This document shows, piece after piece, positions 12,706-52,834 of a stretch of 64,000 nucleotides of DNA. Source of the DNA: Oceanidesulfovibrio indonesiensis (GTDB lineage Bacteria > Desulfobacterota > Desulfovibrionia > Desulfovibrionales > Desulfovibrionaceae). Within the stretch, counting starts at the first letter, position 1. Each line of letters begins with the position of its first letter. A program made the position numbers and the translations under genes. The stretch lies in the NCBI RefSeq assembly GCF_007625075.1, contig NZ_QMIE01000001.1, positions 372,001 to 436,000 of the forward strand, written 5' to 3'. The notes below the pieces were generated by a model that did no database searches, was not told the origin of the DNA, and saw nothing but the letters and a program-made list of their open reading frames with translations.

Positions 12706-15700
12706 TCACGTGTCCTTGCTGTCATTTATTATGAAGTTCGCGCCGATGAGTTTGCGTGCGCCATCGGCGTCCAGCGGTCTGGAAAACATATATCCTTGGG
12801 CGTAGTCGCATGCCAGGGCCTTGAGGCGGTCGAACTGCGCCTGTTCCTCCACGCCTTCGGCCACCACGCACAGGCCCAGGGACTGGGCCAGGGTGACGAT
12901 GGAGCGGATGATCTCGGCGTTCTCCTCCTTGTGCGAGGACATGACGAAGGAGCGGTCGATCTTGAGCACGTCCACGGGAAAGCGCTGGAGATAGGAGAGG
13001 GACGAATAGCCGGTGCCGAAGTCGTCGATGACGAGTTGCACCCCGAGGGCCTTGAGCTGCAGGAGCCGTTCGAGGGATGTGGCCGTGTCCTGCACCAGGG
13101 CGCTTTCCGTGATCTCCAGCCGGAGTCGGTGCGGTTCGATTTCCGCCTGCTCCAGGGTGCGGGCCACGAAGTGCACGAGATCCGGCTGCTGGAGGTGCTT
13201 GCCGGAGAGATTCACGCTGAGCCCCACGTCGCCGGCGCCGGGAATCGCGGCGTCCCACCTGCGCAGTTGGCGTACCGAATGCTCCAGCACCCAATGCCCC
13301 AGGGGGATGATCAGTCCGGTCTCTTCCGCAAGGTGGATGAACGAGCCCGGCATGACGAGCCCCTGCTCCGGGTGGTTCCAGCGCACCAGGGCCTCGAAGT
13401 TCGCGACCATGCCGGTGTTCATGTCCACCAGGGGCTGGTAGTGCAGGGTGAGCTCGTCGCGCTGGAGTGCGCGGCGCAGATCGTTCTCCATGCGCAGAAT
13501 TCGCACCGCCTCCTTGTGCATCCGCGCAGAGAATATCTTGAAGCGGTTCTTGCCGGACTCCTTGGCGCGGTACATGGCGATGTCCGCATCGCGCAGCAGT
13601 TCGTCCGGGCTGGCGTAGTCCCTGGTCTTGAGCACGATGCCGATGGACGCGGAGCTGACAACCTCGTTGCCTTCCAGGGTAAAGGACGCCTGCATCACGC
13701 TCTTGATGCGCTTGGCGATCTGGATGACCTCGCGGTGGTTGGCGAAGTCTTCCAGCAGAATGGCGAACTCGTCGCCGCCGAGGCGGGCCACGGTGTCCAC
13801 GTTGCGCACGCAGGATTCCAGCCTGCGGGAGATGCCGATGAGCAGTTCGTCTCCGGCGAGGTGGCCGAGGCTGTCGTTGACCCATTTGAAGCGGTCCATG
13901 TCTATGAGCAGCACGGCGAAGTTGCGTTCCTTGCGCCGGATGGATCGCTTGAGGGCGCTGTCCAAGCGCTCCAGGAACAGGGCCCGGTTGGGCAGTTGGG
14001 TGAGAGGATCGTGGAACGCCTGATGGGAGAGCTGCTGCTCGAAGGCCTTGCGCTCGGAGATGTCCTCGTACAGATAGTAGACGCCTGCGATCTCGCCGTC
14101 GATGCGCACGGGATAGGCAAGAATGGAGACCGGGATGAGCCGGCCGTTCCGGTGCCGGCGGCAGGACTCCTTGTGGATGGCGGTCCCGGAGAAAACCTCC
14201 TTGCTCAGCGCTTCGGCCTCGTCCATGTGGCTTTCCGGCACAACGATGCGGCGGTTGTACTCGTTGCGCACCTCGTCCAGGCAGTAGCCGAAGAGGTTCT
14301 CGAAGGAGCGGTTCAGGTCCACTATCTTGCCGTGCCTGTCGATGAGCACGATGGCCAGGGGGGAGCTTTCGAACAGCTGGCGGAAGTACGCGCGCTGGAC
14401 GCCGAGATCGGCCTCGGCGCGTTTCAGATCGGAGACATCCGTGAGGCAGGCCAGGGAGCGGCTGCTTTCCGGAACCATGGAGACCGTGGCGAACACGGTC
14501 TTCACCTCGCCGGTTTTGGTTACGATCTCGCATTCATAGTTGCGCGGGGCGGAATCCGGCACGAGCCTGCGGCCGCGGTGGTACTCGATCATGCGGTCGC
14601 AGTCATTGGCCTGCACCAGCATGGTGAACGGCATCCGGCCCTCCACCTCCCGGCGGGAGTAGCCGGACAGTTTCTCCATCTCGGCGTTCATATAGACGAT
14701 GATGGTGTCGTCTTCGATAATCAGGGTGGCGGTGCCGCTGTTCTCGAAAAAGCTGCGGTACTGGATTTCCGAGGTGCGCAGGGCTTCCTCGGCTTCCCTG
14801 CGGGCTGTGATGTCCTGCACCGTTCCTTCGAAGTAGGCGATGCGGCCCTCCTGGTCGCGCACGGCCCTGGCGTTTTCGGAAATCCAGATGACGCGGCCGT
14901 CCTTGCGACGTATCTGCGACTCGAAAGACGCGACCACGCCGTCGCGGCGCATGATCTCCAGGAACTGGTCGCGGCGGTCCGGCTCTACGTACAGCTGCTC
15001 GCGGATGTCCCGCAGCCGGCGCACCATCTCCTCCGGCGTGTCGAAGCCGTAAATGCGCGCAAGTGCAGGGTTCACACGCAGGTACGTTCCTTCCTCCGAG
15101 GACTGGAAGATGCCCTCCACGGCGTTCTCGAAGATGCTGCGATAGTTGCGCTCGGCCGCGGCGAGTTCCTGCTGGGCGGCCCTGCGCTCTGAGATGTCCC
15201 GGAACGAGCCCACGAAAAACGTTTCGTTTCCGGCATGGGTGCGGGTGACGACGACTTCCACAGGAAACGCGGCTCCGTCGGCGCGGTGCGCGGTCAGTTC
15301 CAGGCGTCTGCCTTCTAGCAGGCTGCCCAGAATCGGCGGAGGCTTGCCGTTGCCGGCAAGCGGTTCGTCCATGCCCAGCAGTCTGGTCACGGGCATGCCG
15401 GCAAAGGCGGGTTGCGAGTAGCCGAACATGGATTCCGCCGCCGGGTTGGCGGAAAATATGGCGAGGGTGTCGCTGCCGAAGCTGATGATCGCGTCCGCGG
15501 CGGTGCGGATGACGGCTTCCGTCCTGGACACCGCCTCCTGCAACGCGTCCATCACCTGGTTATAGCGCGCGGCGATGTGGCCGACTTCGGTAAAAGGCTC
15601 CACGGGCACGCGCAGGGCGAGGTCCCTGGAGCGGACTTGTTCGTCCATGGCCTGGAACAGATCGGCGAGCTCGGTCCTTGCGCCGTGCTCGGAGACGTTG

Positions 15701-16875
15701 AGGCCCACGTCCTCCTGTTCCGGCGTCACGCGCAGGGGATGGAAGCGGTTGATGACCCGCAGGAGCGCCAGGGGAAAGCAGAAGGCCGCGACGAACGCCG
15801 CGAATATGCCGAGCATCTGCACGAAAAGCTGCGGCATGAACGCGAGGCCGGTGCCGATCAGCTCCGGGTCGCCGAACAGCGCCACGGCAAGAGTGCCCCA
15901 GATGCCGCAGAACAGGTGCACAGGCACGGCGGATACTGCGTCGTCTATGCGCAGTCGGTTCAGCAGCCATTCGGATGCGAGGCAGACCCAGCCGGCCACG
16001 GCGCCGATAATCACGGCATCCACCGCATCCACGCTGTGGCAGTTGGCCGTAATGGCAACGAGTCCGCCCAGGGAGCCGTTGATGAGGTACGTCACTCTGG
16101 GAAGCCGGGAGAGCAGCCAACCTGTCATGAGACACGAAACAGCGCCGGCGCCGCCGGCCAGCGTGGTGCGGGCGATGATGCCCGGGACCTCGGCGCTGAG
16201 CGCCAGGGTGGAGCCGCCGTTGAACCCGAACCAGCCGAACCAGAGCAGCAGCGTGCCGAGCACGGAAAGGGGCAGGTTGGAGCCGGTGAAATCCCGCGGC
16301 GGGCCGTCTTTTGGAAATTTTCCCTGGCGCGGACCGATGACGACGAGCGCGGCGAGGGCCAGCCAGCCGCCTACGCTGTGCACCACGGTGGAGCCGGCGA
16401 AGTCCACGAAGCCCATTGCGCCGAGCCAGCCCGTGAGCTCGCCTGTGCCCAGGCCGTTCCAGGCCCAGTGGCCGAACACGGGGTAGATAAGGGTGGAGAG
16501 CACGCCGGCTGTGATGAGGTACGAGGAGAAGCGCATCCGCTCGGCCACTGCGCCGGAGAATATGGTGGTGGCGGTGCCGCAGAACATGGCCTGGAAAAAG
16601 AAGAAGGAGGAGGCGAGGGAATCTGCGCCCAGCGCATGAATGAAGCCGTCGCGGCCTATCCAGCCGGCGGCCGAGGCACCGAACATGAGGCCGTAGCCCA
16701 GAATCCAGAAGCTCAGGACGGAGAAAGCGAAATCCGCCAGATTCTTGATGGCGACGTTGATGGAGTTTTTGGAGCGGGTCAGGCCGGATTCCAGACACAT
16801 GAACCCGGGCTGCATGAGGAAGACGAGCGCTGCGGCGAGGAGAATCCAGAACGAGTCGAGGAGCTGCTGTTCCAT
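12706..16875 (-). CDS. Ammonium channel (Amt) fused to PAS-GGDEF-EAL c-di-GMP signalling module
   Basis: A 1389-residue fusion. Residues 1-375 are a full Amt/Rh ammonium channel with about eleven membrane spans. The recruitment Asp (Asp158 in GFVDFAGS) and the twin pore histidines (His166 in VVHSVGG, His320 in AVPVHLFCG) are retained, so conduction looks possible. A HAMP-like linker (about 415-450) leads to four PAS domains (about 455-930). Next come a GGDEF domain with an intact RLGGDEF motif (near 1030) and an EAL domain with NFEALVRW (near 1158), DDFGTGYSSL and VAEGVEEQ. Both c-di-GMP synthesis and breakdown are therefore possible. It is probably an ammonium sensor acting through c-di-GMP. 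No strong binding site precedes the ATG at 16875. An aminotransferase follows after 4 bp. Confidence 0.95.
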   Translation of the reverse strand: MEQQLLDSFWILLAAALVFLMQPGFMCLESGLTRSKNSINVAIKNLADFAFSVLSFWILGYGLMFGASAAGWIGRDGFIHALGADSLASSFFFFQAMFCGTATTIFSGAVAERMRFSSYLITAGVLSTLIYPVFGHWAWNGLGTGELTGWLGAMGFVDFAGSTVVHSVGGWLALAALVVIGPRQGKFPKDGPPRDFTGSNLPLSVLGTLLLWFGWFGFNGGSTLALSAEVPGIIARTTLAGGAGAVSCLMTGWLLSRLPRVTYLINGSLGGLVAITANCHSVDAVDAVIIGAVAGWVCLASEWLLNRLRIDDAVSAVPVHLFCGIWGTLAVALFGDPELIGTGLAFMPQLFVQMLGIFAAFVAAFCFPLALLRVINRFHPLRVTPEQEDVGLNVSEHGARTELADLFQAMDEQVRSRDLALRVPVEPFTEVGHIAARYNQVMDALQEAVSRTEAVIRTAADAIISFGSDTLAIFSANPAAESMFGYSQPAFAGMPVTRLLGMDEPLAGNGKPPPILGSLLEGRRLELTAHRADGAAFPVEVVVTRTHAGNETFFVGSFRDISERRAAQQELAAAERNYRSIFENAVEGIFQSSEEGTYLRVNPALARIYGFDTPEEMVRRLRDIREQLYVEPDRRDQFLEIMRRDGVVASFESQIRRKDGRVIWISENARAVRDQEGRIAYFEGTVQDITARREAEEALRTSEIQYRSFFENSGTATLIIEDDTIIVYMNAEMEKLSGYSRREVEGRMPFTMLVQANDCDRMIEYHRGRRLVPDSAPRNYECEIVTKTGEVKTVFATVSMVPESSRSLACLTDVSDLKRAEADLGVQRAYFRQLFESSPLAIVLIDRHGKIVDLNRSFENLFGYCLDEVRNEYNRRIVVPESHMDEAEALSKEVFSGTAIHKESCRRHRNGRLIPVSILAYPVRIDGEIAGVYYLYEDISERKAFEQQLSHQAFHDPLTQLPNRALFLERLDSALKRSIRRKERNFAVLLIDMDRFKWVNDSLGHLAGDELLIGISRRLESCVRNVDTVARLGGDEFAILLEDFANHREVIQIAKRIKSVMQASFTLEGNEVVSSASIGIVLKTRDYASPDELLRDADIAMYRAKESGKNRFKIFSARMHKEAVRILRMENDLRRALQRDELTLHYQPLVDMNTGMVANFEALVRWNHPEQGLVMPGSFIHLAEETGLIIPLGHWVLEHSVRQLRRWDAAIPGAGDVGLSVNLSGKHLQQPDLVHFVARTLEQAEIEPHRLRLEITESALVQDTATSLERLLQLKALGVQLVIDDFGTGYSSLSYLQRFPVDVLKIDRSFVMSSHKEENAEIIRSIVTLAQSLGLCVVAEGVEEQAQFDRLKALACDYAQGYMFSRPLDADGARKLIGANFIINDSKDT

Positions 16876-22999: not shown

Positions 23000-23036
23000 G
23001 AACCCGCCACCTGGATCGAGTTCAGGCGGCGGGTTC
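23000..23036 (+). terminator. Terminator-like hairpin
   Basis: GAACCCGCC at 23000-23008 pairs with GGCGGGTTC at 23028-23036, with an inner CCTG/CAGG stem. GTGTTTG follows on the plus strand, a weak T-run. It lies between a plus-strand gene ending at 22883 and a minus-strand operon ending at 23106, so it could insulate them. Confidence 0.4.
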
Positions 23037-23105: not shown

Positions 23106-23441
23106 TCACAGCTTGCCGAGGGCGGCCTGTCTGTCCGAGTAGATGTCGAAGAGCCTGTCGTAGCCGGAGATTTCGAAAATCTCCAGGATATAGTCCCGCA
23201 AACCGCTGATGGCCACGGTGCCGTCGTTCTTCTTTTTGAGCCGCTGGTAGGCCATGACGAGTATCCTGAGGCCCGAGCTGTTGATGTATTCGAGTTCGTG
23301 GAAGTCGAACAGCAGCTTCGATTCCCCGCGTTCGAGAGCGGCGAGCACCTGCTCTTCGAGCCCCTGGGTCTCGCTTGAGTCCAGGCGGCCCTTGACGGTG
23401 ATGACGACGACGCCGCCTTCCTGGCTGTTGGATACTGACAT
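23106..23441 (-). CDS. STAS-domain anti-sigma-factor antagonist (RsbV-like)
   Basis: Single STAS domain of 111 residues, the partner-switching antagonist type. Segments VVVITVKGRLDSSETQGLEEQ and LLFDFHELEYINSSGLRILVM match SpoIIAA/RsbV, and the conserved phospho-acceptor serine lies in NSSGLR. AGGAG sits 10 bases before the ATG at 23441. It is the last gene of a seven-gene operon and follows its presumed kinase by 27 bp. No sigma factor and no PP2C phosphatase are nearby, so the output of this switch is unclear; it may regulate the transport proteins of the operon rather than transcription. Confidence 0.9.
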   Translation of the reverse strand: MSVSNSQEGGVVVITVKGRLDSSETQGLEEQVLAALERGESKLLFDFHELEYINSSGLRILVMAYQRLKKKNDGTVAISGLRDYILEIFEISGYDRLFDIYSDRQAALGKL

Positions 23442-23468
23442 CGATATGTGCTCCTTGTCGCTTCCGGC

Positions 23469-23927
23469 TCATTGCCGGTCGACGAATTCATCGGGGTCTA
23501 TGGTTTTGTGGATTTCCAGGACGTTCATGCCGTTTTCGCGGCGGTATTCGATGGAATCCACAAGATTGCGCACGAGATGGATGCCCATGCCGCCCACGGG
23601 CTTTCGCCGTTGCTCCACCGGGATGTCGAGTTCCGGCACCGGCGCGGTGGTCAGGTCGAACGGTCTGGCCTTGTCCTTGATGAGTATGACGAGGACATTG
23701 CCTTCGAGATGCAGATCCACGTTGATGCAGTGCTGGCTGCAATCTCCGTAACCGTACTTGGCGGTATTGGTGACCACCTCGTCCACCACCAGGGTCATCT
23801 GGTAGGCGAGCCTGTCCGAAAGCCCGTGCCGCCGGGCGAACTCTTCGAGCTGGCCGGCCGAGCTGCCGAAGTCGCATTTCTGCTCCTTCACGAGGAAGCG
23901 GACATTTTGTTTGTCATCCGGGCTCAT
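23469..23927 (-). CDS. Anti-sigma regulatory kinase, RsbW-like ATPase
   Basis: Serine kinase/anti-sigma-type protein of 152 residues with a single GHKL ATPase domain. The N-box equivalent TLVVDEVVTNTAKYGY has the catalytic Glu and magnesium-binding Asn, the G1-like segment is IKDKARPFD, and GGMGIHLVRNLVDSIEY matches the G2 region of the RsbW/BtrW family. It should phosphorylate the neighbouring STAS protein. It starts 36 bp after the stop of the upstream membrane protein. An N-terminal extension (KQNVRFLVKEQKCDFGSSAG) precedes the domain. Orphan status without a phosphatase is unusual. Confidence 0.88.
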   Translation of the reverse strand: MSPDDKQNVRFLVKEQKCDFGSSAGQLEEFARRHGLSDRLAYQMTLVVDEVVTNTAKYGYGDCSQHCINVDLHLEGNVLVILIKDKARPFDLTTAPVPELDIPVEQRRKPVGGMGIHLVRNLVDSIEYRRENGMNVLEIHKTIDPDEFVDRQ

Positions 23928-23963
23928 GGAGATTGCCGCCGTGCATTGCGCACCAGTTACAGG

Positions 23964-25919
23964 CTAATAGGCGAGTCTTCCCAGAGACTTGAGTATGAGC
24001 GTGCAGCCCATGGCGAACATGCCGGCGAGCCCCATGCCGCATGAGAATCCCGCCAGAAGGACAGGCGCGTAGTGACGCCAGTTCTTGCCGTATTTCTTGA
24101 AGAAGTAGAACCGGCCGACAAGCGCCCCGACCACCTCCAGTATGACGCCGTGCGGAGTGGATTGGCCCAGACCGCGCACCACGCCGTACACCAGCAGCAC
24201 TGGCAGGCCGAAGAGGTTGAGCAGGAAGTAAATCAGCAAGCCGAAGCCAAGCCCGGCGCTGAGTGTCTCCATGGAAAGAGCTTGGAAGAACAAGGAGTTG
24301 CCTTCCAGTGTGGAGGTCTGGAGCAAAAGGCCGTTGAGCGCCTGGAGGTGCCATAGTTCCTGGGCGTAAGGATAGCTGCCGGAAGGGATGGGCGCCAGCC
24401 GCCAGAGGAACTGCGAAAAAAGCAGGGATGCGATCATGACCACGGGGAAGACCACGATTTCGGCCTTGATGATTCCGCGCAGGCTGGTGCCGGTAAGTTC
24501 TATCTCCCGGAAGTGGACCGTGGCGTCGCCGTAGTTGTGTATGGGGATGGGTGCGTACCAGATTTCGATGCCCTGGTAGCCAAAGTACTTGGCGCCGGCT
24601 ATGAAGCTCGCCTCGCGCACCAGGGGCAGGCTCACGAACTGGCCGGCTATGCCTTCCATGCGCGCCGAGATGTACGAGATGATCGGCGTGTACAAGAAGC
24701 CGTACACGACGAAAAAGTACCACGGGAAGTTGGGCACCAGGTACACGCACATGGCGATGTAAGCCAGTGTGGAGACGACGTAAATGGCTATTGAAACCCA
24801 GAAGTTGATGTCCCCGCGGTCCCTTGGCGGGTTGAAGAGCAGAGAGAAATCCAGTGTGCCCGAGACGCCGCGGAAAGATTTGATCACGTGGTAGATGCCG
24901 ATCACGCCGATGGCCAGACCAAGGCCGATGCCGAAGCTCATGTAAAAATCGAAGTTGTTGGCGAATACCGTTTCCACGGTGGCCATGCCCTGGTGCCAGC
25001 GGTGCAGGATTCCGAAATCGTACAGAATGGGGTTGGCGATGATGGTGATGATGAGTCCCACCAGTCCGCCGATGACAGCCCAGAACGGCAGCACCATGCC
25101 GATGAACACAAGTCCAAGATCAAGCTGCAGGCCAGTGGCCACGGCCGGCAGCGCGTCCTCCGTGTACTGGGTCAGCTCGATCCACGGTATGGGAATAAGC
25201 CGGATGGGCTCGGTGAACAGCAATCCGGACAAGGCCGGCAACAGCACGTAGATCGAGCCGAAAAGCAGCCCGATGACCCCGCCGATGGAGAATATTCGCC
25301 ACTTCCAGCCGGTTTTCTTATCCTCCGTGGACTCCGCCAGGGCCATGGTGCCCAGAGCGGCCACCGGCGCCATGGGGAACGGCAGCTTTTCCACATCCGA
25401 TGTGATGCGGTACAGGGCGTAGCCAAGCCCGAAGTGGTCGATTCGCTGGATGAGCTGCGACCCCACGAGCAGCAATATGGGTATGAGCCAGTCGCGATGG
25501 AAGAATGTCCGCTCCAGCAGGGAGTCGGACCCGGGCTGAGGCGCGATCCATGTGGGAATGTACTCTGTGATCCCCAGCATCTTGGCCGCGTCGGACTGCA
25601 CGAGATACTGGTTCCATAGAAGGCCAGAAAACGGTGAGGCAAGCGCGGCGCCTGCCATGTAATAGAGCAGGAATATCTCCTGCTGCTTGAGCTCGGTGTA
25701 GGACCGCTTGGCGATCTCGGCGAAGAGGATGATGGTGACCCAGCGGGCGGCAGGGCCGATGCCCTGGCCGATAACGAGCTGGAGATACATCGACCCCGGC
25801 ATCATCAAAAAGCCGATGAACACGGCGCCGACGATGGTCTTCCAGTCGAAGCCTTCTTCAAATTTGTCGGGTGGCTGTAGTAAGTCCCGATATTCTTTGA
25901 GTTCTTTGTCGTCGTACAT
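23964..25919 (-). CDS. Large multi-spanning membrane protein, possibly OPT-like transporter
   Basis: A 651-residue integral membrane protein with more than a dozen hydrophobic segments. A cytoplasmic N-terminus (YDDKELKEYRDLLQPPDKFEEG) precedes the first span (IVGAVFIGFLMMPGSMYLQL). The segment YTELKQQEIFLLYYMAG and the long cytoplasmic linker SFRGVSGTLDFSLLFNPPRDRG are distinctive. The architecture resembles the oligopeptide-transporter (OPT) superfamily, but I cannot assign a transporter class firmly. Its ATG lies 3 bp after the stop of another large membrane protein and has no binding site of its own, indicating coupled translation. The two may form a hetero-complex. Substrate unknown. Confidence 0.7.
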   Translation of the reverse strand: MYDDKELKEYRDLLQPPDKFEEGFDWKTIVGAVFIGFLMMPGSMYLQLVIGQGIGPAARWVTIILFAEIAKRSYTELKQQEIFLLYYMAGAALASPFSGLLWNQYLVQSDAAKMLGITEYIPTWIAPQPGSDSLLERTFFHRDWLIPILLLVGSQLIQRIDHFGLGYALYRITSDVEKLPFPMAPVAALGTMALAESTEDKKTGWKWRIFSIGGVIGLLFGSIYVLLPALSGLLFTEPIRLIPIPWIELTQYTEDALPAVATGLQLDLGLVFIGMVLPFWAVIGGLVGLIITIIANPILYDFGILHRWHQGMATVETVFANNFDFYMSFGIGLGLAIGVIGIYHVIKSFRGVSGTLDFSLLFNPPRDRGDINFWVSIAIYVVSTLAYIAMCVYLVPNFPWYFFVVYGFLYTPIISYISARMEGIAGQFVSLPLVREASFIAGAKYFGYQGIEIWYAPIPIHNYGDATVHFREIELTGTSLRGIIKAEIVVFPVVMIASLLFSQFLWRLAPIPSGSYPYAQELWHLQALNGLLLQTSTLEGNSLFFQALSMETLSAGLGFGLLIYFLLNLFGLPVLLVYGVVRGLGQSTPHGVILEVVGALVGRFYFFKKYGKNWRHYAPVLLAGFSCGMGLAGMFAMGCTLILKSLGRLAY

Positions 25920-25922
25920 GAT

Positions 25923-27941
25923 TTACGCCGGGAATACCTGGTAGCTCATGCCTGTTATCATTCCGATGATCGCATACAAGCCGCCCATGAGGAAGTCGGC
26001 GAGGATGAAGCCCAGGAACACATTGCGCACCTTGCGGAACAGCGCCGTGCCGCCGTAGTGCAGGCACAGGTGGTTGCACAGCCAGCCCACGAAGAAGCTG
26101 AACCAGAGGATATCCATGGCCGAACTGTACGCCATGAGGTAGCCGAGGGGGTGGATGGGCCACCACACGAAGCGGTAATAGCCCAGCACGAGGACGAGCA
26201 TCACGGCCGCGCCCACGAGAGAGAAGTTGATGATCCAGCGCGAGCCCTCAGAAGGCACTTCCACCAGCCGTTGCGCGCTCTCGTACATGGTGAGGGTGGT
26301 GCGTGAGGCCCAGTCCAGACGAAGGTCGCGGATGCCATACTTGTGGGCGAGGTACAGCATGGCCAGAAAGCTCACCGCCACGGCAGCCGTGAGCATCACC
26401 ACCAGACCCAGAAAGAACAGCCGCCGCGCTTTGACCTCCTCGCCCACCTTGGAGGCGTGGAACAGCGAGGGCATGAGGGATTCCCGAAGGTCCAGGAACA
26501 GCATTTTCTGCATCACCATGGCCACCACAAGGCCGACTCCGCCGAAGAATTTGGAACCGAAGGCTGCAAGCGTGCCGTCCAGCGGCGCCGCCGTGAGCGT
26601 GAAGTAGGGCACGCCGCCCTGGCACACGATGCGGCTGGCCACGATGCTGAAGGCGAACAGGACAATGGGCGTGACGATTGCCGGCAGCGGCGGCATGCCG
26701 AACACCCAGCACCACACGGACAGCAGTGCAAGCCCCAGCACCGCGCCCCAGAAGGCCAGCGGCGCCGGGAACCATTCTGCGGAGTGCTCGTCCAGACCGC
26801 GGTCTTCCAGGGTTCCCTGTTCGGCCGAGTCCACTTTTCCCCGCAGGCCCACGCTGCGCAGGATCACGTAGCCGAAGTGCTGCCGGCCAAGCCAGACGAG
26901 GAAGAAAAAGAAAACCACGGTGGCGCCTATGACCTGCGCTTCTTCCGGCCGGGCCATGCTGGGACCGAAGGTGGTCCCCAGGGCGGCGGCCGGCACCTGG
27001 ATGCCGATGGCCGACAGCAGGCCGAAGGACAACCCGCCCAGCAGAAAGAAGAACCAGAAGCTGAAGGATATCTGCCGCGTGGTCAGGAAGGCGAAACCGA
27101 TGAACGCCGGATAGATGTATATCTTCAGGTTGTGGTAGCCGGAAAAGAGCCCGAACTTGGGGAAGTACGTGCCGGCAATGAACAGGGTGGGAAGCCGGGG
27201 CACCGACGGGTAGTAGAAGTTCAGCCCGTTCACCGTGTGCAAAAAGACCACCAGGACGAGGCCCATGAGCAGGTACTTGTTGCCCAGGAACTTGCCGAAT
27301 GCGCCTTCATCAAAGCTCTCGGCCATCATCTGCGGCAACCGCAGCAGCGGGAAGTTGACCCGTTCGTTGACCACCCACTGGTTGCCGAAGAGGTTCACCA
27401 GACACAGCATCACACCGTAGCACAACAGGATGAACAGCCCCCAGGTGATGAGCGGCGGAAGCCACACGCCCCAGGGCACGTTGACGAGGACCTCGAAAAT
27501 GCCCATGTCGCGGCCGTTCTCCAGGCCGTTGAACAGGGTTTCGATGGCGGCCGGGTCGGCCGGATACCAGCTTTGGGGGAGCAGTGGATGCAGCACCTCC
27601 TCCCAGCGGTTGGCAGCGTTGGCGAAGTAGTGTGGAGCTGTGACGTTGAAGAAGAACGTACGCGCCAGACCCGTGTACGAAATGCCCGAGACAACCACCA
27701 TGAGAATCCAGGTAACGAGCATCTCGATGCCGGTGAGCAGCTTGTATCCTTTGAACAGCCGCGCGACCACGGCGGAGATCATGAACAGCCAGGAGACGAT
27801 GAAGAACGGCGCAAGCGGAAAGTGCCCGCCGCCCAGAGGAGTGCCGCCGAGATAGACGTTGAAGTACGGTGTGATGGCCGTGATGCCCAGGCCGAAGCCG
27901 GCGCCGAGCAGCAGGGAACGGAGTCGAATGGGCCGTGTCAT
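25923..27941 (-). CDS. Large multi-spanning membrane protein, DUF6785-like
   Basis: A 672-residue integral membrane protein resembling the DUF6785/DUF6784 families. It starts with RSLLLGAGFGLGITAITPYFNVYLGGTPLGGG, a proline- and glycine-rich first hairpin typical of that family, then VNERVNFPLLRLPQMM in a cytoplasmic loop and many hydrophobic spans. A charged loop near 380-400 (DSAEQGTLEDRGLDEHSAEW) divides the N- and C-terminal halves. Function is unknown. The start overlaps the stop of the giant FtsX fusion gene (ATGA), and the next membrane protein follows 3 bp later, so all three are co-translated. Confidence 0.75.
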   Translation of the reverse strand: MTRPIRLRSLLLGAGFGLGITAITPYFNVYLGGTPLGGGHFPLAPFFIVSWLFMISAVVARLFKGYKLLTGIEMLVTWILMVVVSGISYTGLARTFFFNVTAPHYFANAANRWEEVLHPLLPQSWYPADPAAIETLFNGLENGRDMGIFEVLVNVPWGVWLPPLITWGLFILLCYGVMLCLVNLFGNQWVVNERVNFPLLRLPQMMAESFDEGAFGKFLGNKYLLMGLVLVVFLHTVNGLNFYYPSVPRLPTLFIAGTYFPKFGLFSGYHNLKIYIYPAFIGFAFLTTRQISFSFWFFFLLGGLSFGLLSAIGIQVPAAALGTTFGPSMARPEEAQVIGATVVFFFFLVWLGRQHFGYVILRSVGLRGKVDSAEQGTLEDRGLDEHSAEWFPAPLAFWGAVLGLALLSVWCWVFGMPPLPAIVTPIVLFAFSIVASRIVCQGGVPYFTLTAAPLDGTLAAFGSKFFGGVGLVVAMVMQKMLFLDLRESLMPSLFHASKVGEEVKARRLFFLGLVVMLTAAVAVSFLAMLYLAHKYGIRDLRLDWASRTTLTMYESAQRLVEVPSEGSRWIINFSLVGAAVMLVLVLGYYRFVWWPIHPLGYLMAYSSAMDILWFSFFVGWLCNHLCLHYGGTALFRKVRNVFLGFILADFLMGGLYAIIGMITGMSYQVFPA

Positions 27942-30900
27942 GCCGTTTCACCTTCGCCGCTGAAACCGTGCTCTGGTTGCCAGCCCTCGCTTTTGCGCAG
28001 CTTTTCGCGCAACTCCTCCTCGTAGCTCATGCGCGCCTTCTCCTCCAGAGAACGCCATACGAGCAGCTGTTTGCGCAAGGCGTTGAGGAAGGACTTGCTC
28101 AGGTTCCTCCAGACGGTGTGCTCGCCCGCCTCGCGGTAGAGATGGACCTTGATCTGCCGGAATCCGGGATAGTCCTCTGCCGGACAGAAAACCAGGGTCA
28201 CGCGCTGGCGCACGCCGAAATCGAACGGCGCGAGCCATGTGCGCATGGTCATGGTGAAGCAGACGTCCTCGTCGCTGGACAGCTCCCTTGCAAATTCGGG
28301 CAGATCCTTGCTCGTGGTGAACTCGTAGTCCATGTCCGCGCTGGAGAAAAGCCCGTGCGAAATGTCTCTGTGCGCTTCGTAGTAGTCCAGCAGGAATCCG
28401 CCGGCCGTGCCCAGTTCGCTTGTCTTCACCAGGAAGGGCAGGGTCACGGTGAGCTCGTTGCCCTTGGGGTCGGGCATGGTCCAGGAGCGGTTCACGTCCG
28501 GTATGGCGATATTGGCCGCCACCCGGGAGGGATAGATGACCGAAATGAGCACCACGGCCATCACGAGCAGCATCGCGGCCACGCCGGCCATGGACGAGTA
28601 GTTGGCGGTCATGCCGGCCCAGATGGGTGTGCCGGCCAGGAATCCGGCCGCCGTCTGCGCTCCCAGGTAGCCGAGCACCACGCTTATCACCGCAAAGGCC
28701 AGAGACTCCGCCACGAACAGGAACGAAACATGCGAAGGCGCCAGCCCCACCGAGGTGTAGACCGCGATTTCCCCTTTGCGCTCATATACTGAGCCGATCA
28801 TGGTGTTGAGCACGATGAGCACGGAGATGACGAGCGGAATGATGATGTTGGGCACGCCGGAGTATGATATCTGGTCCGCGGCGAAGTAGAGGGCCGTGCC
28901 TTCGTCGTCGCCCACGAAGAGCATGAGGCCGAAGCGGTCCGAAAGCCACCTGCCCAGTTCGGTCACGTCCTGGCTCTCGTGGGGTTTGAGCGCGATGCCC
29001 TTGAGCCGGCCGCCGCCGCCCAGTCCGCCGCCGCCTTTGGTGATGGCGAGAAGGGCGGTGTGGTACATGACGACCACCTGCTCTGCCGGGATGTGCTCGT
29101 ACCGGCCCTGGAAGCTCATGAGATCCTCGCCGGACTCGAAGGTGTCCGCCTCCACCTGGGCCACGTCCATGAAGGATTCGGACGGATAGATGACGGGCGT
29201 GATGGGTTCGCCGTCCAGGTCGCGATACCGCTCGTACTCCGCGGCGTCGAAACAGCCAACCACTTCGAAGTCCATGCCCCATATCTCCACGCGCCGTCCT
29301 TCCGGCGTGGAGAGGTCCACGTTGAGGATCTGGGCCATGCGCTCCGGGATGACCACGGCGTTTCGCTCGTCCTCCCGGAGCCAGCGGCCGCGGGTGAGGG
29401 TGGCGTCCAGCCCGCTCACCTGGGGCTCCATCTCGGAGAGCCCCACCACGCCGCGCGCGGAGAAGATTTCATCGCCCTTGTGCACGGGCACCAGGTGGGG
29501 CCGGGAGATGTCCTGCGGCGTTACGTACCACACCCGGGGCGCCACGATTCCCTTGCCATGGAACATGTCCCGCGCGGCGTTGAGCGATTCGCGGGCCATG
29601 TCCTTCCAGCCGATGTTCTTCAGCAGGATGCCTTCGTAGGCTGCCGTATCGCTGAACATGGTGCGCGAGTGCTGGCGCACGGACTTCACCGCCGTGAAGT
29701 TCATGATGGTGAAGGTGAGGATGATGAGCGTGACCGCCGTGAGCGCTGTGCGGATGGGCCGTCGCCTGAGGTTGGAGACGCCCAGGGTGAACGCGGCCAT
29801 GAACGCGCCGAACCTGGATATTTCCGAGGTCTTCAGGTGGCGGGATCTTCGTTGCAGCTCGGTCATTTCCCGTTCGAAGCGGAAGAATATGATGAGCGAT
29901 ACGAGGAACGAGAGGCCCACGATGAAGAAGGCGATGATGACCACCAGCGGGCTGTAAGTAAGCTGGAAGGCCGGGTGGATGGCGTAGATGACCCCGATGA
30001 TGCCCACCAGAATGCCGAGGAACGCCAGGATGCGCTTGTGGATGTTCGCATAGCCGAAGAGCAGCCGCTCCATGCAGTAGGCGAACGGCGCGAAAAGCGC
30101 CACGTAGAACAGCACGCCCACGAGCACGTCTTTTTGCGTCTTGTCCACGTCGTTGTACACGCGGGTGGCCATGGCCCAGGAGGACCTGGATTTTTCCATG
30201 AACACGTCCCACTGCATGTCGGACTTGGCTGTCTCGGCCGCCTCCAGCGCGGCGCGTCCTTCGTCCATCAGGGCGCGCAGCCGGTTGTTCACGATGCCCT
30301 TTTCCTCAAGGTTCTCCAGCCGCGGCGTCACCAGATGCCACATGTCCCTGGCCGCCTGGTAGGCGGTGTAGGGGATGAGCGGCCAGTCAGCCGGGAGAAA
30401 GCCTCTGCCCTGGGGTTTTTCTTCCGAGGCGTTGAGCAGGATCATCTTGCGACCGAGCACCGTGTCGGACAGCGCCGCCTTGAACGGCACGCCCGGCTCC
30501 ACGAAAATGGCGTTGATGGTGGAGGCCCAGGTGTCCAGCCGGCTGTACCAGAACCGTAGCGGCTCGGCTTCGGTGCGCGCGTCGAACAGGTCGATGCGCG
30601 TCATGTACTTGAACGTCCGCGGCTCCAGCGTGTTGAAAAGGTTGGACTGCGCGCAGGTGAACATCACGAGGTCCGTTTCCATGAAGGAACGCACCATTTT
30701 GACCCGGTAGGCGGATAAACCGGTCTGCGCCTTGTCCACGGCCCACTGGACCCGCCCCGTGTCATCGAACCTGTATGGTTCCAGGATGGCCTTGTGGTTC
30801 GTGTGTTTGCGGTCCGCCAGACCAGCCACCCGGAAGAAGCCCATGGAGTCCACCATGGCGTAGAAGCGGGAGTCGCCCTGATAGCAGAGCACCACAGTGC

Positions 30901-32860
30901 CCTGGGCAGGCAGGTCCGGGAAGAGTTCACCCTGTCGCAGCAGATTGGCACGGCCCGTGAGCATGGCGATGCCCTTGCGCGGCCTGGGTGATCTCATGGG
31001 CACGTCGCCGCCGGCCATGGACTCTGCCAGGTGGCGGACAACCTCGCCCTGTTGCTCCAGGTAGTCGAAGTCCACGTCCTCGATGGTGTCGTACGGCGTG
31101 CCCCAGTTGGGTCGGGCATCGTGCAGCGTTGCCATGGTCAGGCCGATCATGCCGGCCATGGCAGGCACCTCGCCCGCCAGGTCGGGCTGGTCCGGCAGGT
31201 AGCTCTGCCACGTGCGCAGCCGGCTGGGCCGCAGAGTGTCGCGGTAGAGGTCCGGTCCGCCCTGGTTGAGCAATTCCTCGTTGGCGGCCATGAGGTAGGT
31301 GTCCAGATCGGAATAGGACCGGGCGCGGTTCACGTCCGAGCGAAGGTCGTAGAGCCAGCCGCGGTCGAAGGAGCCGACGCCGTCGCCGTGGCTGGAGAGG
31401 TGCAGGGAGATGGAAGCTGCGATCTGGAAGCCGCCGAACCGGCTGCGCACGGTGCTGGCTGCTCGCTGCATGCGGACCTGGCGATTCGCGTCGTCGCGTC
31501 TGGCTTGTTGCTCCGCCAGGGCTTCGGGCACTATCTTCATGAGCCGTTCGCGGTCCGCGGGGGGGATGCCTTCGTAGGTGCTCAGCCAGCTCAACTGGCG
31601 CAGTTGGGCACGTTGGTCCGCCAGGGTCTGGAGGAGTTCGGAGTCGACATTGGCCCTGTCCAGCAGGCGCAGCCGCATCAGACGCGTGGAAATTTTGTCC
31701 ACACGGGTCTTGATGATCTGATTGATGGCGTCGCGGGCCAGTTGTTCGGCCTCCTGGTCCGAGTGGTCCAGAGGGTCTTCGCGCTCCAGCGCCTTAACCG
31801 TATCGGCGGCGGTCTTGGCGCGGTTGCGCAGGTCCATCTGGTAGGATCGGGCATAGCGGCCGCTCAGCTCCAGCGCCATGACGAACTCGCGCATGCCGGC
31901 CTGGGCCTGGCTGTGACCGGAAGTGGCCAGCAGCAGCACGTTGCGTTTAGGCGGGTTCCTGCCGAAATGCTCGGCCAGGTCCAGAAGCCGCGCCACGGAG
32001 ACAGCTTCGTCCGCTCCCGGAGAGGCGCCGGGAACGTAGCCCGTGGAGTCGTAAAACGCTTCAAAGATGACGAGCTGGTCTTCGTACTGTTCATCGCTGC
32101 CCGGAATGAAGCAGTAGACGTTCTCGGCCGTGGCGTCTTCCCAGGCGATGTCGTTGGTCAGCGTTACCCGAACGCCGAGGTCGCCTTTCTCGATATCCTG
32201 CATGGGGCCGAAGAGTGATTCGGCCTCGGCTTTGGGCATCCAGAACCGGGGAAAGTCGATGGGGGTGAGTTCGAGCTTGTCCTCGAAGAACCAGCGCGGT
32301 GCGGACTCCGTGATGGCCGGATCGTCCAGGTAGATGAGGGCGCGCGCACCGAGCATCGCCGCGTTCATCCAGTTCTTGCCCGAGTCCAGGTCCATGAGGA
32401 CCACGGCGTCCTGGATCTCGGCGCCGTTGAAGTCCTTGAGCTCGCCGGGCCCCACGTAGACCACCCGACGCGGCGGTTCGCCCGGAGGCATGGTGCCCGG
32501 GGCCACGGCGTTCATGATGAGGGGGTGGAGGGTGGCGCGCTTGCCCGTGTTTTCCACGGAAATTTCGCTGCCGAAGTGCCTGCGCGCGGGAATTCGGAAG
32601 GGCTGCGTGTCCACGATGCGGCCCTGGCCTTCGTCGCCCAACCCCTGGAAAGGCTCGGGCGGAACGAGCCGTTCGAAGGTTTCGGCCACAAACGCCGCGG
32701 CCTTCTTGCTCCCCTCGCTGCCCACGCTGCGGTCTCCGTAGGAGGCCAACTCCCCGATGACTTCGCGCGCATCCAGTGCTGCTGCCGGAGCGACCCAGCA
32801 CAGGCTGCAGAGCGTAAGGAAAAGTACCGCGCCAAGGCGGCTGACGCGTGCTGCGGTCAT
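27938..32860 (-). CDS. Giant ABC permease: M28-peptidase-like ectodomain fused to FtsX/MacB-type permease
   Basis: A 1640-residue protein. A signal peptide (about 1-28) leads to a periplasmic region of roughly 900 residues. It begins with a PA-like insert (about 130-215) inside an M28 aminopeptidase-like fold. The metal ligands are lost: the usual HYD is FYD at 269-271, the GxD aspartate remains (Asp284), the catalytic EE pair is SGH (near 314), and the late histidine of the YHT motif is replaced in PYDTIED. The C-terminal half has paired hydrophobic segments, an FtsX first span (RTALTAVTLIILTFTIMNFT), a MacB-like periplasmic domain, three terminal FtsX spans and a further cytoplasmic tail of about 170 residues. 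It overlaps the ATPase gene (ATGA). Likely a mechanotransmission ABC subunit rather than a protease. Confidence 0.85.
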   Translation of the reverse strand: MTAARVSRLGAVLFLTLCSLCWVAPAAALDAREVIGELASYGDRSVGSEGSKKAAAFVAETFERLVPPEPFQGLGDEGQGRIVDTQPFRIPARRHFGSEISVENTGKRATLHPLIMNAVAPGTMPPGEPPRRVVYVGPGELKDFNGAEIQDAVVLMDLDSGKNWMNAAMLGARALIYLDDPAITESAPRWFFEDKLELTPIDFPRFWMPKAEAESLFGPMQDIEKGDLGVRVTLTNDIAWEDATAENVYCFIPGSDEQYEDQLVIFEAFYDSTGYVPGASPGADEAVSVARLLDLAEHFGRNPPKRNVLLLATSGHSQAQAGMREFVMALELSGRYARSYQMDLRNRAKTAADTVKALEREDPLDHSDQEAEQLARDAINQIIKTRVDKISTRLMRLRLLDRANVDSELLQTLADQRAQLRQLSWLSTYEGIPPADRERLMKIVPEALAEQQARRDDANRQVRMQRAASTVRSRFGGFQIAASISLHLSSHGDGVGSFDRGWLYDLRSDVNRARSYSDLDTYLMAANEELLNQGGPDLYRDTLRPSRLRTWQSYLPDQPDLAGEVPAMAGMIGLTMATLHDARPNWGTPYDTIEDVDFDYLEQQGEVVRHLAESMAGGDVPMRSPRPRKGIAMLTGRANLLRQGELFPDLPAQGTVVLCYQGDSRFYAMVDSMGFFRVAGLADRKHTNHKAILEPYRFDDTGRVQWAVDKAQTGLSAYRVKMVRSFMETDLVMFTCAQSNLFNTLEPRTFKYMTRIDLFDARTEAEPLRFWYSRLDTWASTINAIFVEPGVPFKAALSDTVLGRKMILLNASEEKPQGRGFLPADWPLIPYTAYQAARDMWHLVTPRLENLEEKGIVNNRLRALMDEGRAALEAAETAKSDMQWDVFMEKSRSSWAMATRVYNDVDKTQKDVLVGVLFYVALFAPFAYCMERLLFGYANIHKRILAFLGILVGIIGVIYAIHPAFQLTYSPLVVIIAFFIVGLSFLVSLIIFFRFEREMTELQRRSRHLKTSEISRFGAFMAAFTLGVSNLRRRPIRTALTAVTLIILTFTIMNFTAVKSVRQHSRTMFSDTAAYEGILLKNIGWKDMARESLNAARDMFHGKGIVAPRVWYVTPQDISRPHLVPVHKGDEIFSARGVVGLSEMEPQVSGLDATLTRGRWLREDERNAVVIPERMAQILNVDLSTPEGRRVEIWGMDFEVVGCFDAAEYERYRDLDGEPITPVIYPSESFMDVAQVEADTFESGEDLMSFQGRYEHIPAEQVVVMYHTALLAITKGGGGLGGGGRLKGIALKPHESQDVTELGRWLSDRFGLMLFVGDDEGTALYFAADQISYSGVPNIIIPLVISVLIVLNTMIGSVYERKGEIAVYTSVGLAPSHVSFLFVAESLAFAVISVVLGYLGAQTAAGFLAGTPIWAGMTANYSSMAGVAAMLLVMAVVLISVIYPSRVAANIAIPDVNRSWTMPDPKGNELTVTLPFLVKTSELGTAGGFLLDYYEAHRDISHGLFSSADMDYEFTTSKDLPEFARELSSDEDVCFTMTMRTWLAPFDFGVRQRVTLVFCPAEDYPGFRQIKVHLYREAGEHTVWRNLSKSFLNALRKQLLVWRSLEEKARMSYEEELREKLRKSEGWQPEHGFSGEGETA

Positions 32861-33651
32861 GCGTCGGCCCCTTCCTCCCTGGTTTGATCTGCACCTGGGG
32901 TGACATCCTCGCCGTCCTTGCCGATGCTGCCAACGGAGATGTCCAGTTCGTCGCGGCGTTCGATCTTGTGCACGCGGCCGTCCCGAATCCAGACAACGCG
33001 ATCCGAGACGTTGAGCATCTTATAGTCGTGGGTGGCGGATATGACAGTGACGCCGCGGTCCTGGCTCAGGGTCTTGAGCAGGTCGATGATTTCCGCGCCG
33101 GTCTTGAGGTCCAGGTTGCCGGTGGGTTCGTCGGCCAGGACGATGGCCGGATCGTTGGCCAGGGAGCGGGCGATGGCGACGCGCTGCTGCTGGCCGCCGG
33201 AAAGCTCCAGGGGCTTGTGCTGGAACCTCTCGCCCAGGCCCACCAGCTTGAGCAGCTCGATGCCTTTGTCCGCTGCCACCTCGGCGTTCATGCCGGCGAA
33301 GGTCATGGGCAGGGTTACGTTCTCCAGGGCGGTCATCACCGGGATAAGGTTGAAGGTCTGGAAAATGTAGCCGATCTTGCGGTTTCGCAGCCAGGCCAGC
33401 TCGTAGGCGTCAAGCTGGGATATGTCGACTTCGTCGATGAAGACCTTGCCGTCGCTGGGCTTGTCCAGTCCGCCGATCATGTTGAACAGGGTGGATTTAC
33501 CCGATCCGGAAGGCCCCATGATGGAGATGTACTCACCGGCGTAGATTTCCAGGTCCACGCCTTTGAGCGCCTGAACCTGGACCTTGCCCATGCGGAATTC
33601 CTTCTTCACGCCCAGGGCCCGGACTATGATGTGTGCCGTGGATTGCGTCAT
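32857..33651 (-). CDS. ABC transporter ATPase, LolD/MacB type
   Basis: Nucleotide-binding subunit of 264 residues for FtsX-type permeases. Walker A is GPSGSGKST, the Q-loop lies in IGYIFQTFNLIP, the signature is LSGGQQQRVAIARSL, Walker B is IVLADEPTGNLD, and the H-loop is in VISATHDYKML. The Q-loop wording and GNLD are characteristic of the LolD/MacB/FtsE group. A C-terminal extension of about 30 residues (RRDELDISVGSIGKDGED) exceeds the typical LolD length of about 230. It sits between the small FtsX gene (16 bp upstream) and the giant fusion (ATGA overlap), and probably energises both permeases together. Confidence 0.95.
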   Translation of the reverse strand: MTQSTAHIIVRALGVKKEFRMGKVQVQALKGVDLEIYAGEYISIMGPSGSGKSTLFNMIGGLDKPSDGKVFIDEVDISQLDAYELAWLRNRKIGYIFQTFNLIPVMTALENVTLPMTFAGMNAEVAADKGIELLKLVGLGERFQHKPLELSGGQQQRVAIARSLANDPAIVLADEPTGNLDLKTGAEIIDLLKTLSQDRGVTVISATHDYKMLNVSDRVVWIRDGRVHKIERRDELDISVGSIGKDGEDVTPGADQTREEGADA

Positions 33652-33667
33652 GTCGTATCTGTACCGC

Positions 33668-34369
33668 CTAGTGTTCTGCGCTCATGGCGACGACCGGCTG
33701 CATCCGCGCCGCCACCACTGCGGGGTAGAAGACGCCGACGAGGCTGAGGAGCAGGCCCGCGGCCACGGACATGCCGAGGGAGACGAGCACGTCCGAAAAA
33801 GCCAGGCCGGCCACGGAATTCCACCCGAAGCGGATAAGCCCGTTGAGCACTGAAAAGAAAAAGCCGACCAGCGCGCCGGCAAAGGAGCCGACCAGTCCCT
33901 GCATGCCTGCTTCCAGCAGGAAGAGGCGCAGGACGATGGAGTCCAGCGCGCCCAGGCATTTCATGATGCCGATCTCGCGGAACCGTTCCGTGACGGACAT
34001 GAGCTGTGCATTGACGATGCCGACCGTGCACACGAGCAGAGAGAGGATCACGATCCAGCGCTCTTTGGCGCCGGTGCCCACGGTCATGGCGGCCTCGTCC
34101 ACGTCGAACCCGGCCTCGATGAGCTGCTCGGCCGCGGCAGCGCCGCCGGCGTTCAGAAATCCCTGGGCCAGATCGGTGGTGGTGAGGATGAAATTGAGGA
34201 AAGCCACGGCCAGCACCAGGCTGAGCACCGTGATGAGTGAGCGGAAGAAGCGCACCCTGAGATTCTTGAAGCTGATCTCCAGGGACTTGGCCCACGGCAG
34301 GACGATCTGCCGTTTGATGGACTCCCCGCCTGTGGATGTTGGTGGGGAGTATTGATCAGTCGGGCTCAT
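33668..34369 (-). CDS. Short FtsX-like ABC permease
   Basis: A 233-residue permease, first gene of the seven-gene operon. The ATG at 34369 has CACGGAGAAAGC upstream. The N-terminal cytoplasmic stretch (about 1-30) leads to a juxtamembrane segment SLEISFKNLRVRFFRSLITV and the first span. The periplasmic loop is only about 70 residues, much smaller than in MacB or LolC, and three spans follow, with ERFREIGIMKCLGAL between the first two as in FtsX coupling helices. A standard MacB periplasmic domain is missing; the giant fusion may supply the ectodomain, making a heterodimeric permease. Confidence 0.87.
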   Translation of the reverse strand: MSPTDQYSPPTSTGGESIKRQIVLPWAKSLEISFKNLRVRFFRSLITVLSLVLAVAFLNFILTTTDLAQGFLNAGGAAAAEQLIEAGFDVDEAAMTVGTGAKERWIVILSLLVCTVGIVNAQLMSVTERFREIGIMKCLGALDSIVLRLFLLEAGMQGLVGSFAGALVGFFFSVLNGLIRFGWNSVAGLAFSDVLVSLGMSVAAGLLLSLVGVFYPAVVAARMQPVVAMSAEH

Positions 34370-47718: not shown

Positions 47719-48060
47719 GGAGACTCCGTCCGGATTGGGAAGAAGGAACCCTAGCGCAAGGAGGGCGGCGGGCCAAGGGGGAATGTGGCTGGACCGGAAA
47801 AATGCTGCATAATGCAACGCTGCCCTGATGAATAAGGCTTTTGTTCGGCCCGGAATGCAGCATGAGCATCCCGGACGTGCGGCGCGATCGGATTCAAAGT
47901 GAAGCTGCTATCACCATACGCCATTCATTTTCTTGACATGAAACACTAAAAAATTGTTAAGGTATGGAATGGCTGCACGCTGCCGTAGTTTGCGGTCGCA
48001 GAAGGGGGGCCGCTTTGAGACGTGGCCGTAAACTGCAATGGAGTTCGGGCGAACAACACC
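47719..48060. other. Divergent intergenic region
   Basis: 342 bp between the leftward radical SAM gene and the rightward response regulator. It includes an AT-rich block at 47925-47970 with the likely response-regulator promoter, and a TGCATAATGCA palindrome near 47808. I see no ORF of its own. Confidence 0.45.
47933..47962 (+). promoter_or_regulatory. Possible promoter of the response-regulator gene
   Basis: A perfect TTGACA (47933-47938) is followed after 18 bp by TTAAGG (47957-47962), a poor -10. The AT-rich surroundings support a promoter. Confidence 0.4.
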
Positions 48061-49071: not shown

Positions 49072-49722
49072 TCAGTTTTCGCTGTCGGCAACCTGCTCTG
49101 CGATATCCAGCTCCAGCTGCGCGAACATGGCGGCGAAAGCCGCTTCCATGGCCTGAACAACGCCGGCGGCGCCCTCTCCTTCCACCGATGCGCGCTCGGA
49201 GTACGTGCGATCCATGATGATGGAGTACTCCATGCCGTCGTCCCGGATGAGGGTGGCGTGCAGCCGGGCCATGGTCTGCGATGGCTTGGCGGAGTAGTCC
49301 GCATACAACTCTTCGATATTCGTCTCCAGGACATAGAGGCTGTCCGTGCTGCTGCTTGGCGGAAGCACGGCGGCGAACAGTCCGGCGTCCCGTATCCAGC
49401 GGGTCATGGCCTGGCTCACCTGGTCCGCGGGTGGGGCCAGGAAGAGGTGGTAGTAGTCCGTGACGAACGCGCCGTCTTCGAGTTTGTAGACGAGCTCACG
49501 CGAGCTGAAGCTTGGGGCGGCGGTGAGTCGCCGAATCTTTATGCGCTCGGACAGGGGCTTCTCCAGCAGCGGAGCGCCGTCCCGCAACGGGTTCAGCGTG
49601 TAGTAACGCTTGCTCGGGCTCGGTTGCGAGAGCTCGCCCAGACAGCCTGCAGCAAGCAGCGTCACGGCCAGCAGGGCCATGGTCGCCAGCAGCCGCAGGG
49701 CGGCGTATCGGAAAGGCCTCAT
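49072..49722 (-). CDS. PqiC-like lipoprotein (ABC-type transport auxiliary)
   Basis: Outer-membrane lipoprotein of 216 residues that works with MCE-type transporters. The lipobox LAAGC occurs at about 24-28 after a signal peptide. The mature part begins RYYTLNPLRDGAPLLEK, the usual opening of the PqiC/ABC_trans_aux family, and has SSRELVYKLEDGAFVTDYYHLFLAPP and MARLHATLIRDDGMEYSIIMDRTYSE. It overlaps the MCE gene (ATGA), completing a four-gene set of permease, ATPase, MCE protein and lipoprotein. Confidence 0.88.
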   Translation of the reverse strand: MRPFRYAALRLLATMALLAVTLLAAGCLGELSQPSPSKRYYTLNPLRDGAPLLEKPLSERIKIRRLTAAPSFSSRELVYKLEDGAFVTDYYHLFLAPPADQVSQAMTRWIRDAGLFAAVLPPSSSTDSLYVLETNIEELYADYSAKPSQTMARLHATLIRDDGMEYSIIMDRTYSERASVEGEGAAGVVQAMEAAFAAMFAQLELDIAEQVADSEN

Positions 49723-52752: not shown

Positions 52753-52834
52753 GTGCAATGGCTCCGGGCTCAATGGCGGCTGGTCAATCCTGAAAACCCT
52801 ACTGCATGGCGTAATGGGGCACAAGGGGGAGTGG

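Follow-up and report, generated by a model that had tools for sequence, protein, structure and literature searches.

The stretch of Oceanidesulfovibrio indonesiensis DNA analysed here (64,000 nucleotides, hereafter the window) carries a leftward gene cluster, the first five genes of which almost certainly constitute a real functional unit, an apparently undescribed five-part membrane machine that many sulfate-reducing bacteria and relatives of theirs possess. From gene 1 to gene 5 they encode a short FtsX permease (X1), a LolD/MacB-type ATPase, a giant FtsX protein, a membrane protein with the domains DUF6785 and DUF6784, and an OPT-like membrane protein; behind them lie genes for an RsbW-like kinase and a single-domain STAS protein. 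An earlier description of this DNA from its letters only (the sequence-only reading) had placed seven leftward genes here with junctions of at most 36 bp, and a check of the open reading frames (ORFs) of the window confirmed all of them, on the minus strand and with ATG starts; the junctions from gene 1 to gene 7 are a gap of 16 bp, two overlaps of 4 bp, and gaps of 3, 36 and 27 bp. The seven ORFs are supported as coding because the GC content at the third codon position is 0.78-0.86 in each of them. The two FtsX proteins and the ATPase had been recognised correctly, but their order had not, since gene 1 is the short FtsX permease and gene 2 the ATPase. The observation as such stands, and the model of a seven-gene unit needs to be revised to a five-gene core, because only five genes are constant and the kinase/STAS pair occurs in 16 of 72 loci only.

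The loci compared were drawn from a phylum-wide genome sample, from named genomes and from near relatives, and the families were mapped on them with profiles made from these same loci. Gene 5 was present in 105 loci, 74 of which had at least 9.5 kb of upstream sequence, and in 68 of these 74 the five core genes followed one another in the same order and on the same strand, with median spacings between profile matches of 61, 64.5, 45 and 42 bp (66 loci). Duplicates of named loci (L028-L032) were excluded from alignments and counts, L142 and L149, whose contigs are as long as those of L057 and L122, were left out of the locus-order and accessory counts only, and the split ORFs in L047 and L071 were taken as one gene each in the locus-order count. 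Among the six exceptions, X1 was not found in two (L084 and L111), three had only the DUF6785 and OPT-like genes (L098, L035 and L045) and one had only gene 5 (L090). The whole set occurred in the same order in a relative of the same genus (L141). In one locus (L027, 6600-9300) some 2.8 kb of additional sequence separates the gene of the giant from that of the DUF6785 protein. The contig scan of named genomes covered the best 80 of 224 relatives, which by their titles are Desulfobacterota, apart from a few placed only as Deltaproteobacteria, Proteobacteria or Pseudomonadota; the named carriers included Desulfovibrio relatives, Desulfobacterales, relatives of Desulfocapsa and Desulfofustis and a Syntrophobacterales genome (L058). 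A gene order conserved beyond Desulfovibrio, which the sequence-only reading had named as a sign that the seven families are a functional unit, was found for the five core genes and not for the kinase/STAS pair.

Co-occurrence pointed in the same direction. Presence and absence were scored in 297 genomes drawn evenly across Desulfobacterota, so that all genomes counted belong to one phylum and related ones are not independent. DUF6785 (above cut-off), a full match to the ectodomain of the giant (E < 1e-250) and the OPT-like protein were each found in 20 of the 297, and these were the identical 20 genomes, spanning 11 families; in Oceanidesulfovibrio's own family the set was present in 3 of 11 sampled genomes. 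The profiles A1, A3, A5, A6 and A7 derive from loci that carry the core and may overlook distant relatives in other places, whereas PF20581 (DUF6785) is an independent Pfam model. Beyond these there were weak matches: G001 has a fragment of DUF6785, G000 a second, short match to the OPT-like protein, and 38 more genomes have short matches to the ectodomain, below 48 bits. Stretches from six of the 38 were inspected, and their long ORFs (L159-L164) looked secreted and not like FtsX, with what we take, by eye, to be M1 peptidase, M28 and PDZ domains. In a further 59 relatives, gene 5 was found in 13 and the full giant in 14, namely the same 13 genomes plus one (G301) in which a contig end falls just past the DUF6785 gene; two others gave short, weak matches to the giant. 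The core parts were also jointly present when unlinked, on separate contigs in G295, G254 and G073, and with the giant and gene 5 some 15 kb apart in G106. No relative of the DUF6785 protein was confirmed in one scan of viral contigs, and neither this protein nor gene 5 had a match in 72,556 plasmid records. DUF6785 may also occur in Planctomycetota and Verrucomicrobiota.

Genes 1 to 3 have the makings of an ATP-binding cassette (ABC) system. X1 (33668..34369, minus strand, 233 aa) matches PF02687 (E 2.1e-14) and has about 35 aa between its first two hydrophobic stretches, so that it is without a large periplasmic domain. The ATPase (32857..33651, minus strand, 264 aa; PF00005, E 2.2e-34) contains, at positions located in its sequence, the Walker A, Q-loop, LSGGQ, Walker B and H-loop motifs. 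The giant (27938..32860, minus strand, 1640 aa) matches FtsX (E 7e-10), Peptidase_M28 (E 2e-7; 31.1 bits, cut-off 21.3) and, just below the cut-off of 27 bits, MacB_PCD (E 1e-5; 26.3 bits); the permease domain PF02687 is above cut-off in both gene 1 and gene 3. According to these matches, to hydropathy and to the conservation over 69 aligned proteins (the window protein and 68 relatives), the giant begins with a signal-like N-terminus, followed by the ectodomain (aa 28-905; 30146..32779, minus strand) and three extra hydrophobic stretches at about aa 910-997; behind these come an FtsX core at about aa 1035-1454 (28499..29758, minus strand) and a conserved C-terminal extension, with a MacB-like periplasmic domain between the first two hydrophobic stretches of the core. 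The best NCBIfam matches of the ATPase by score were LolD, MacB and DevA. Neither the LolCDE equivalog cut-offs (LolD 231.4 against 307.75 bits, lolCE 47.3 against 362.45) nor that of MacB (217 and 55.4 against 966 bits) were reached, and the ATPase and the permease are separate genes. Judged by its domains, the ABC part is assigned to the Type VII superfamily and kept out of LolCDE and MacB, because their scores or architecture are not matched. The domains also support the envelope machine suggested previously.

The ectodomain of the giant was modelled with AlphaFold2 (mean predicted local distance difference test score 92.5, predicted template modelling score 0.92), and the model comprises an M28 fold, a PA domain, a long helical insertion and a C-terminal beta domain. 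Foldseek matched it to M28 aminopeptidases with a PA domain (E 1.5e-17), and structural comparison with VIA gave Z 28.3 for BSAP (6hc6; 378 residues, root-mean-square deviation (rmsd) 5.0), Z 27.4 for the Aeromonas aminopeptidase (1amp; 258 residues, rmsd 2.5) and Z 25.9 for the transferrin receptor (3kas; 388 residues, rmsd 6.8); the transferrin receptor also matched the PA part in sequence (E about 1e-4). Both histidine metal ligands and the Glu-Glu pair, on the other hand, were found in none of the 69 proteins. The first metal-binding His is replaced by Phe in 55 of them, Glu-Glu mostly by Gly-His, and the last metal-binding His by Gly in 63, and in an alignment with two active enzymes the lost residues fall on the expected catalytic columns. 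Other positions have been retained, with W586, T588, P589 and D591 invariant in all 69 proteins and the Asp of the PGAD motif kept in 66; a further Asp ligand could not be located. An active peptidase is rejected because catalytic residues are lost in 69 of 69 proteins; the protease-like ectodomain of the sequence-only reading has the fold of a peptidase without these residues. Since the active site has been lost, the ectodomain has an M28 fold without being an M28 peptidase, and it is most likely a binding domain. The transferrin receptor, which is catalytically inactive, and other non-cutting M28 relatives likewise combine an M28 fold and a PA domain with lost catalytic residues. Unlike the transferrin receptor, the present ectodomain is bacterial, is fused to an FtsX permease and is enlarged by a long insertion of helices and by one more beta domain.

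The two large membrane proteins, which had been left unassigned, could be placed to different degrees. Gene 4 (25923..27941, minus strand, 672 aa) matches DUF6785 (PF20581, E 5.3e-156) and DUF6784 (PF20580, E 2.8e-32). Its predicted model (the same two scores being 89.6 and 0.92) matched only two chains of the PDB in a Foldseek search at E <= 0.001, both of them of barley Yellow stripe 1 (7e-8 and 2e-7), an OPT/YSL transporter that takes iron chelates in the plant. The comparison with Yellow stripe 1 (7wsr) in VIA gave Z 22.0 over 551 residues, with an rmsd of 4.3 and 12% identity, and the next entry reached Z 4.3. Based on this model, the DUF6785/6784 protein very probably has the OPT/YSL fold. 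At the level of sequence, Pfam OPT (PF03169) matched 0 of 44 DUF6785 relatives at E 0.01, and sequence and profile searches of the PDB with gene 4 gave no match. Gene 5 (23964..25919, minus strand, 651 aa) matches PF03169 at E 9e-6 with 25.0 bits, just under the cut-off of 25.8, which suggests that it is probably OPT-related; sequence and profile searches of the PDB with this protein likewise gave no match. It is 79-85% identical in the best 80 of 224 relatives, and with a mean distance of 0.22 it is better conserved than any other core protein (ATPase 0.29, X1 and the DUF6785 protein about 0.7, giant 0.91).

The five proteins, we infer, would form a single machine of the inner membrane. Its engine would consist of the ATPase with both FtsX proteins and would be of the Type VII (mechanotransmission) kind, in which ATP, by way of partner proteins, powers work done in the periplasm (PMC12646458). 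The dead M28 and PA ectodomain of the giant would bind a ligand rather than cut it, and the DUF6785/6784 protein and the OPT-like protein would pair up as a further transporter unit with the OPT fold. The simplest arrangement for these two would be a heterodimer, analogous to Yellow stripe 1, a homodimer for which elevator-like transport has been proposed (PMC9691689). Movement of the ectodomain driven by ATP could then catch a periplasmic ligand, either peptide-like or chelate-like, and pass it to the OPT pair, which may carry it inward across the membrane. The kinase/STAS pair, the glycosyltransferase and deacetylase-like genes and the trio C7-C5-C6, all described below, would be accessory to this machine. 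As a whole, such an import-type machine of five proteins is the best explanation at present, and it is proposed tentatively, with a confidence somewhat short of even; capture and import of a ligand through the OPT pair, taken on its own, is considered about equally likely. It is rather doubtful, on the other hand, that the locus represents a hybrid class, in which a transferrin-receptor-like dead peptidase would link a Type VII ABC engine mechanically to an OPT-fold heterodimer acting as carrier, and ATP hydrolysis in the ABC unit would drive or gate the movement of substrate through this separate carrier. A literature search found no ABC engine coupled in this way to an OPT carrier.

Several results weigh against the import-type machine. 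Both of its folds rest on predicted models, and the neighbouring glycosyltransferase and deacetylase-like genes suit glycoconjugate export no less than import. In G295 and G254, no X1 was found next to the genes of the ATPase and the giant. PF03169 at E 0.01 matched gene 5 in 1 of 16 relatives and in 1 of 10 of a second set, and when 94 genomes were searched with PF03169, gene 5 was matched in one of six core genomes (G073, 18.7 bits, under the cut-off) and was unmatched in Oceanidesulfovibrio's own genome. The possibility that gene 5 and DUF6785 are recognisable sequence relatives was rejected (hhalign probability < 1%). Profiles of four OPT proteins, which came from two genomes of the phylum and were found in the PF03169 search, gave long, non-significant alignments with gene 5 and DUF6785, and in hmmsearch at E 10 they had no match among the relatives of either; these tests are weak because the profiles are shallow.

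The main rival of ligand import is a machine for the export or extraction of an envelope glycoconjugate, which we consider fairly unlikely. According to this explanation, the neighbouring glycosyltransferase and deacetylase-like enzymes would have a lipid-linked sugar or glycopeptide as their product; its outward movement would fall to the OPT-fold pair, and the Type VII ABC part with its dead-peptidase arm would extract it from the membrane, as LolCDE does with lipoproteins. The two genes in question are C8 (35376..36965, minus strand), of the GT28 type (PF04101, E 1.6e-7), in which an alignment shows the N-terminal part of the listed ORF to be unconserved and the start is uncertain, and C9 (34543..35379, minus strand), similar to DUF2334 and polysaccharide deacetylases, the DUF2334 match being present in the C9 of the relative L094 and absent from the window protein. 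C8 lies upstream in 33 and C9 in 31 of the 70 loci used for upstream linked genes, C9 has a strong match in 18 of the 20 core genomes, further glycosyltransferase genes occur upstream within the window, and membrane extraction is a known task of Type VII ABC systems (PMC12646458), all of which speaks for export. However, C9 is absent from the core genomes G213 and G277 and strongly present in G255, which lacks the core (weak matches occur in three other genomes), and the one structure that the model of the DUF6785 protein matches well, Yellow stripe 1, belongs to an importer (PMC9691689).

Three more linked genes lie on the other side of the core, also on the minus strand. These are C7 (21535..22260), with a signal-like N-terminus, C5 (20572..21501) and C6 (20169..20606), which has a PqqD-like domain of the type that recognises ribosomally synthesized and post-translationally modified peptides (PF05402, E 6.4e-12). 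C7 was found in 17 and C5 in 10 of the 297 genomes, in both cases entirely within the 20 core genomes and often far from the core. Among the 72 loci with at least 6 kb of downstream sequence, C6 was present in 36 and all three genes jointly in 29. Neither C5 nor C7 had a family match in the family scans, and in a PDB search the C7 profile gave no match and C9 and C5 only matches at E 0.2 or worse. The wider set around the five constant genes thus also includes C9, C8, C7, C5 and C6, which were missing from the gene list of the sequence-only reading. Going by the linked genes of the GT28, deacetylase-like and PqqD-like kinds, the ligand may be a glycan or resemble a peptide. As side observations, G213 and G277 each contain three copies of C7, and many loci carry next to the core a recurrent pair of C10, an MsbA-like exporter, and C11, a cyclic-nucleotide-binding protein (e.g., L113, 4160-6748; L118, 13348-13878).

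A quite improbable explanation is a sensing complex like BceAB-BceS, in which the ectodomain would bind an envelope signal and the complex would report it inward, with the kinase/STAS pair as one output. The resemblance of the ectodomain to a binding domain would suit this explanation, and so would the pair itself, the domains of which bear out the RsbW-like and RsbV-like assignments made previously: gene 6 (23469..23927, minus strand) matches HATPase_c_2 (E 6.4e-24) and gene 7 (23106..23441, minus strand) matches STAS (PF01740, E 6.2e-17). The pair lies beside the core, downstream, in 16 of the 72 loci, on the same strand in five (the window, L141, L144, L150 and L057) and on the opposite strand in 11, there at a distance of 1.9-3.5 kb and behind C7-C5-C6. 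It is also present in L077, L104 and L110, which have less downstream DNA, and L051, with a STAS gene and no RsbW, was excluded from the count. However, 56 of the 72 loci lack the pair over the stretch of DNA examined, and sensing has no need for two carrier-like proteins of 650 aa. The kinase/STAS pair is a recurrent accessory outside the constant unit, and it can no longer be regarded as a standing part of the unit, as the sequence-only reading had supposed; within an import-type machine it may serve as a switch. An HATPase_c_2 kinase adjoining a single-domain STAS protein is likewise found in RsbW/RsbV pairs. Unlike these, the present pair is accessory to a core and does not reach the cut-offs of the named anti-sigma equivalogs (RsbW 39.7 against 145 bits, SpoIIAB 26.4 against 135), and the STAS protein passes TIGR00377 (67 bits, cut-off 53.45). 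The STAS motif is conserved, and in the window protein a serine precedes its GLR. A 14-bp hairpin 3' of the STAS gene (23000..23036, minus strand; z -5.06, with 0 of 200 shuffles folding as well) is not followed by a U-run on the transcribed strand and is missing from the list of predicted terminators; it is possibly a transcript end or a stabiliser.

That the genes are separate neighbours sharing the locus by descent, without a joint function, is very improbable: the restriction to one phylum of non-independent genomes and the profiles derived from core-bearing loci would favour it, but it is already contradicted inside the phylum by the identical set of 20 genomes across 11 families, the patchy presence in Oceanidesulfovibrio's own family, the joint presence of unlinked parts and the independently made PF20581.

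No description of this gene set, of DUF6785 or of DUF6784 was found in a literature search, in agreement with the earlier statement that no described system with this set is known. Among the known Type VII ABC systems, LolCDE, MacAB-TolC, FtsEX-EnvC, YbbAP-TesA and BceAB-BceS likewise combine FtsX-type permeases with a LolD/MacB-type ATPase, with YbbAP teaming up with a hydrolase and BceAB with a partner in the membrane (PMC12646458). The present system differs from them in that its hydrolase-like domain is fused to a permease and has lost its active site, and in its constant association with a protein of predicted OPT fold and an OPT-like protein. The OPT/YSL transporters (Yellow stripe 1, 7wsr/7wst) share the predicted fold of the DUF6785/6784 protein, but in contrast to the Yellow stripe 1 homodimer two different proteins always occur together here, tied to an ABC engine, and the identity is low.

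Other features of the window lie outside this gene cluster. An ORF of 1389 aa at 12709-16875 combines an ammonium transporter with PAS, GGDEF and EAL domains and is possibly, as its domains suggest, an ammonium-sensing cyclic di-GMP enzyme. A lipid-asymmetry set (MlaD, MlaE with an N-terminal STAS_2 domain, and MlaA) is located at 49722-54636, about 15 kb upstream of the operon, and TPR repeats and a Radical SAM domain occur in one protein at 46465-47817.

Based on the results of this study, a predicted fold is now available for DUF6785 and DUF6784, two Pfam families of unknown function, and a dead peptidase like that of the transferrin receptor, in its predicted fold, is shown on a bacterial ABC permease. 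Across a major group of sulfate and sulfur bacteria, the core of five proteins and several linked families keep company with one another. Should the parts of the core make up a single complex, the joint work of an ABC engine and a separate OPT carrier would extend the range of partners known for Type VII ABC systems.

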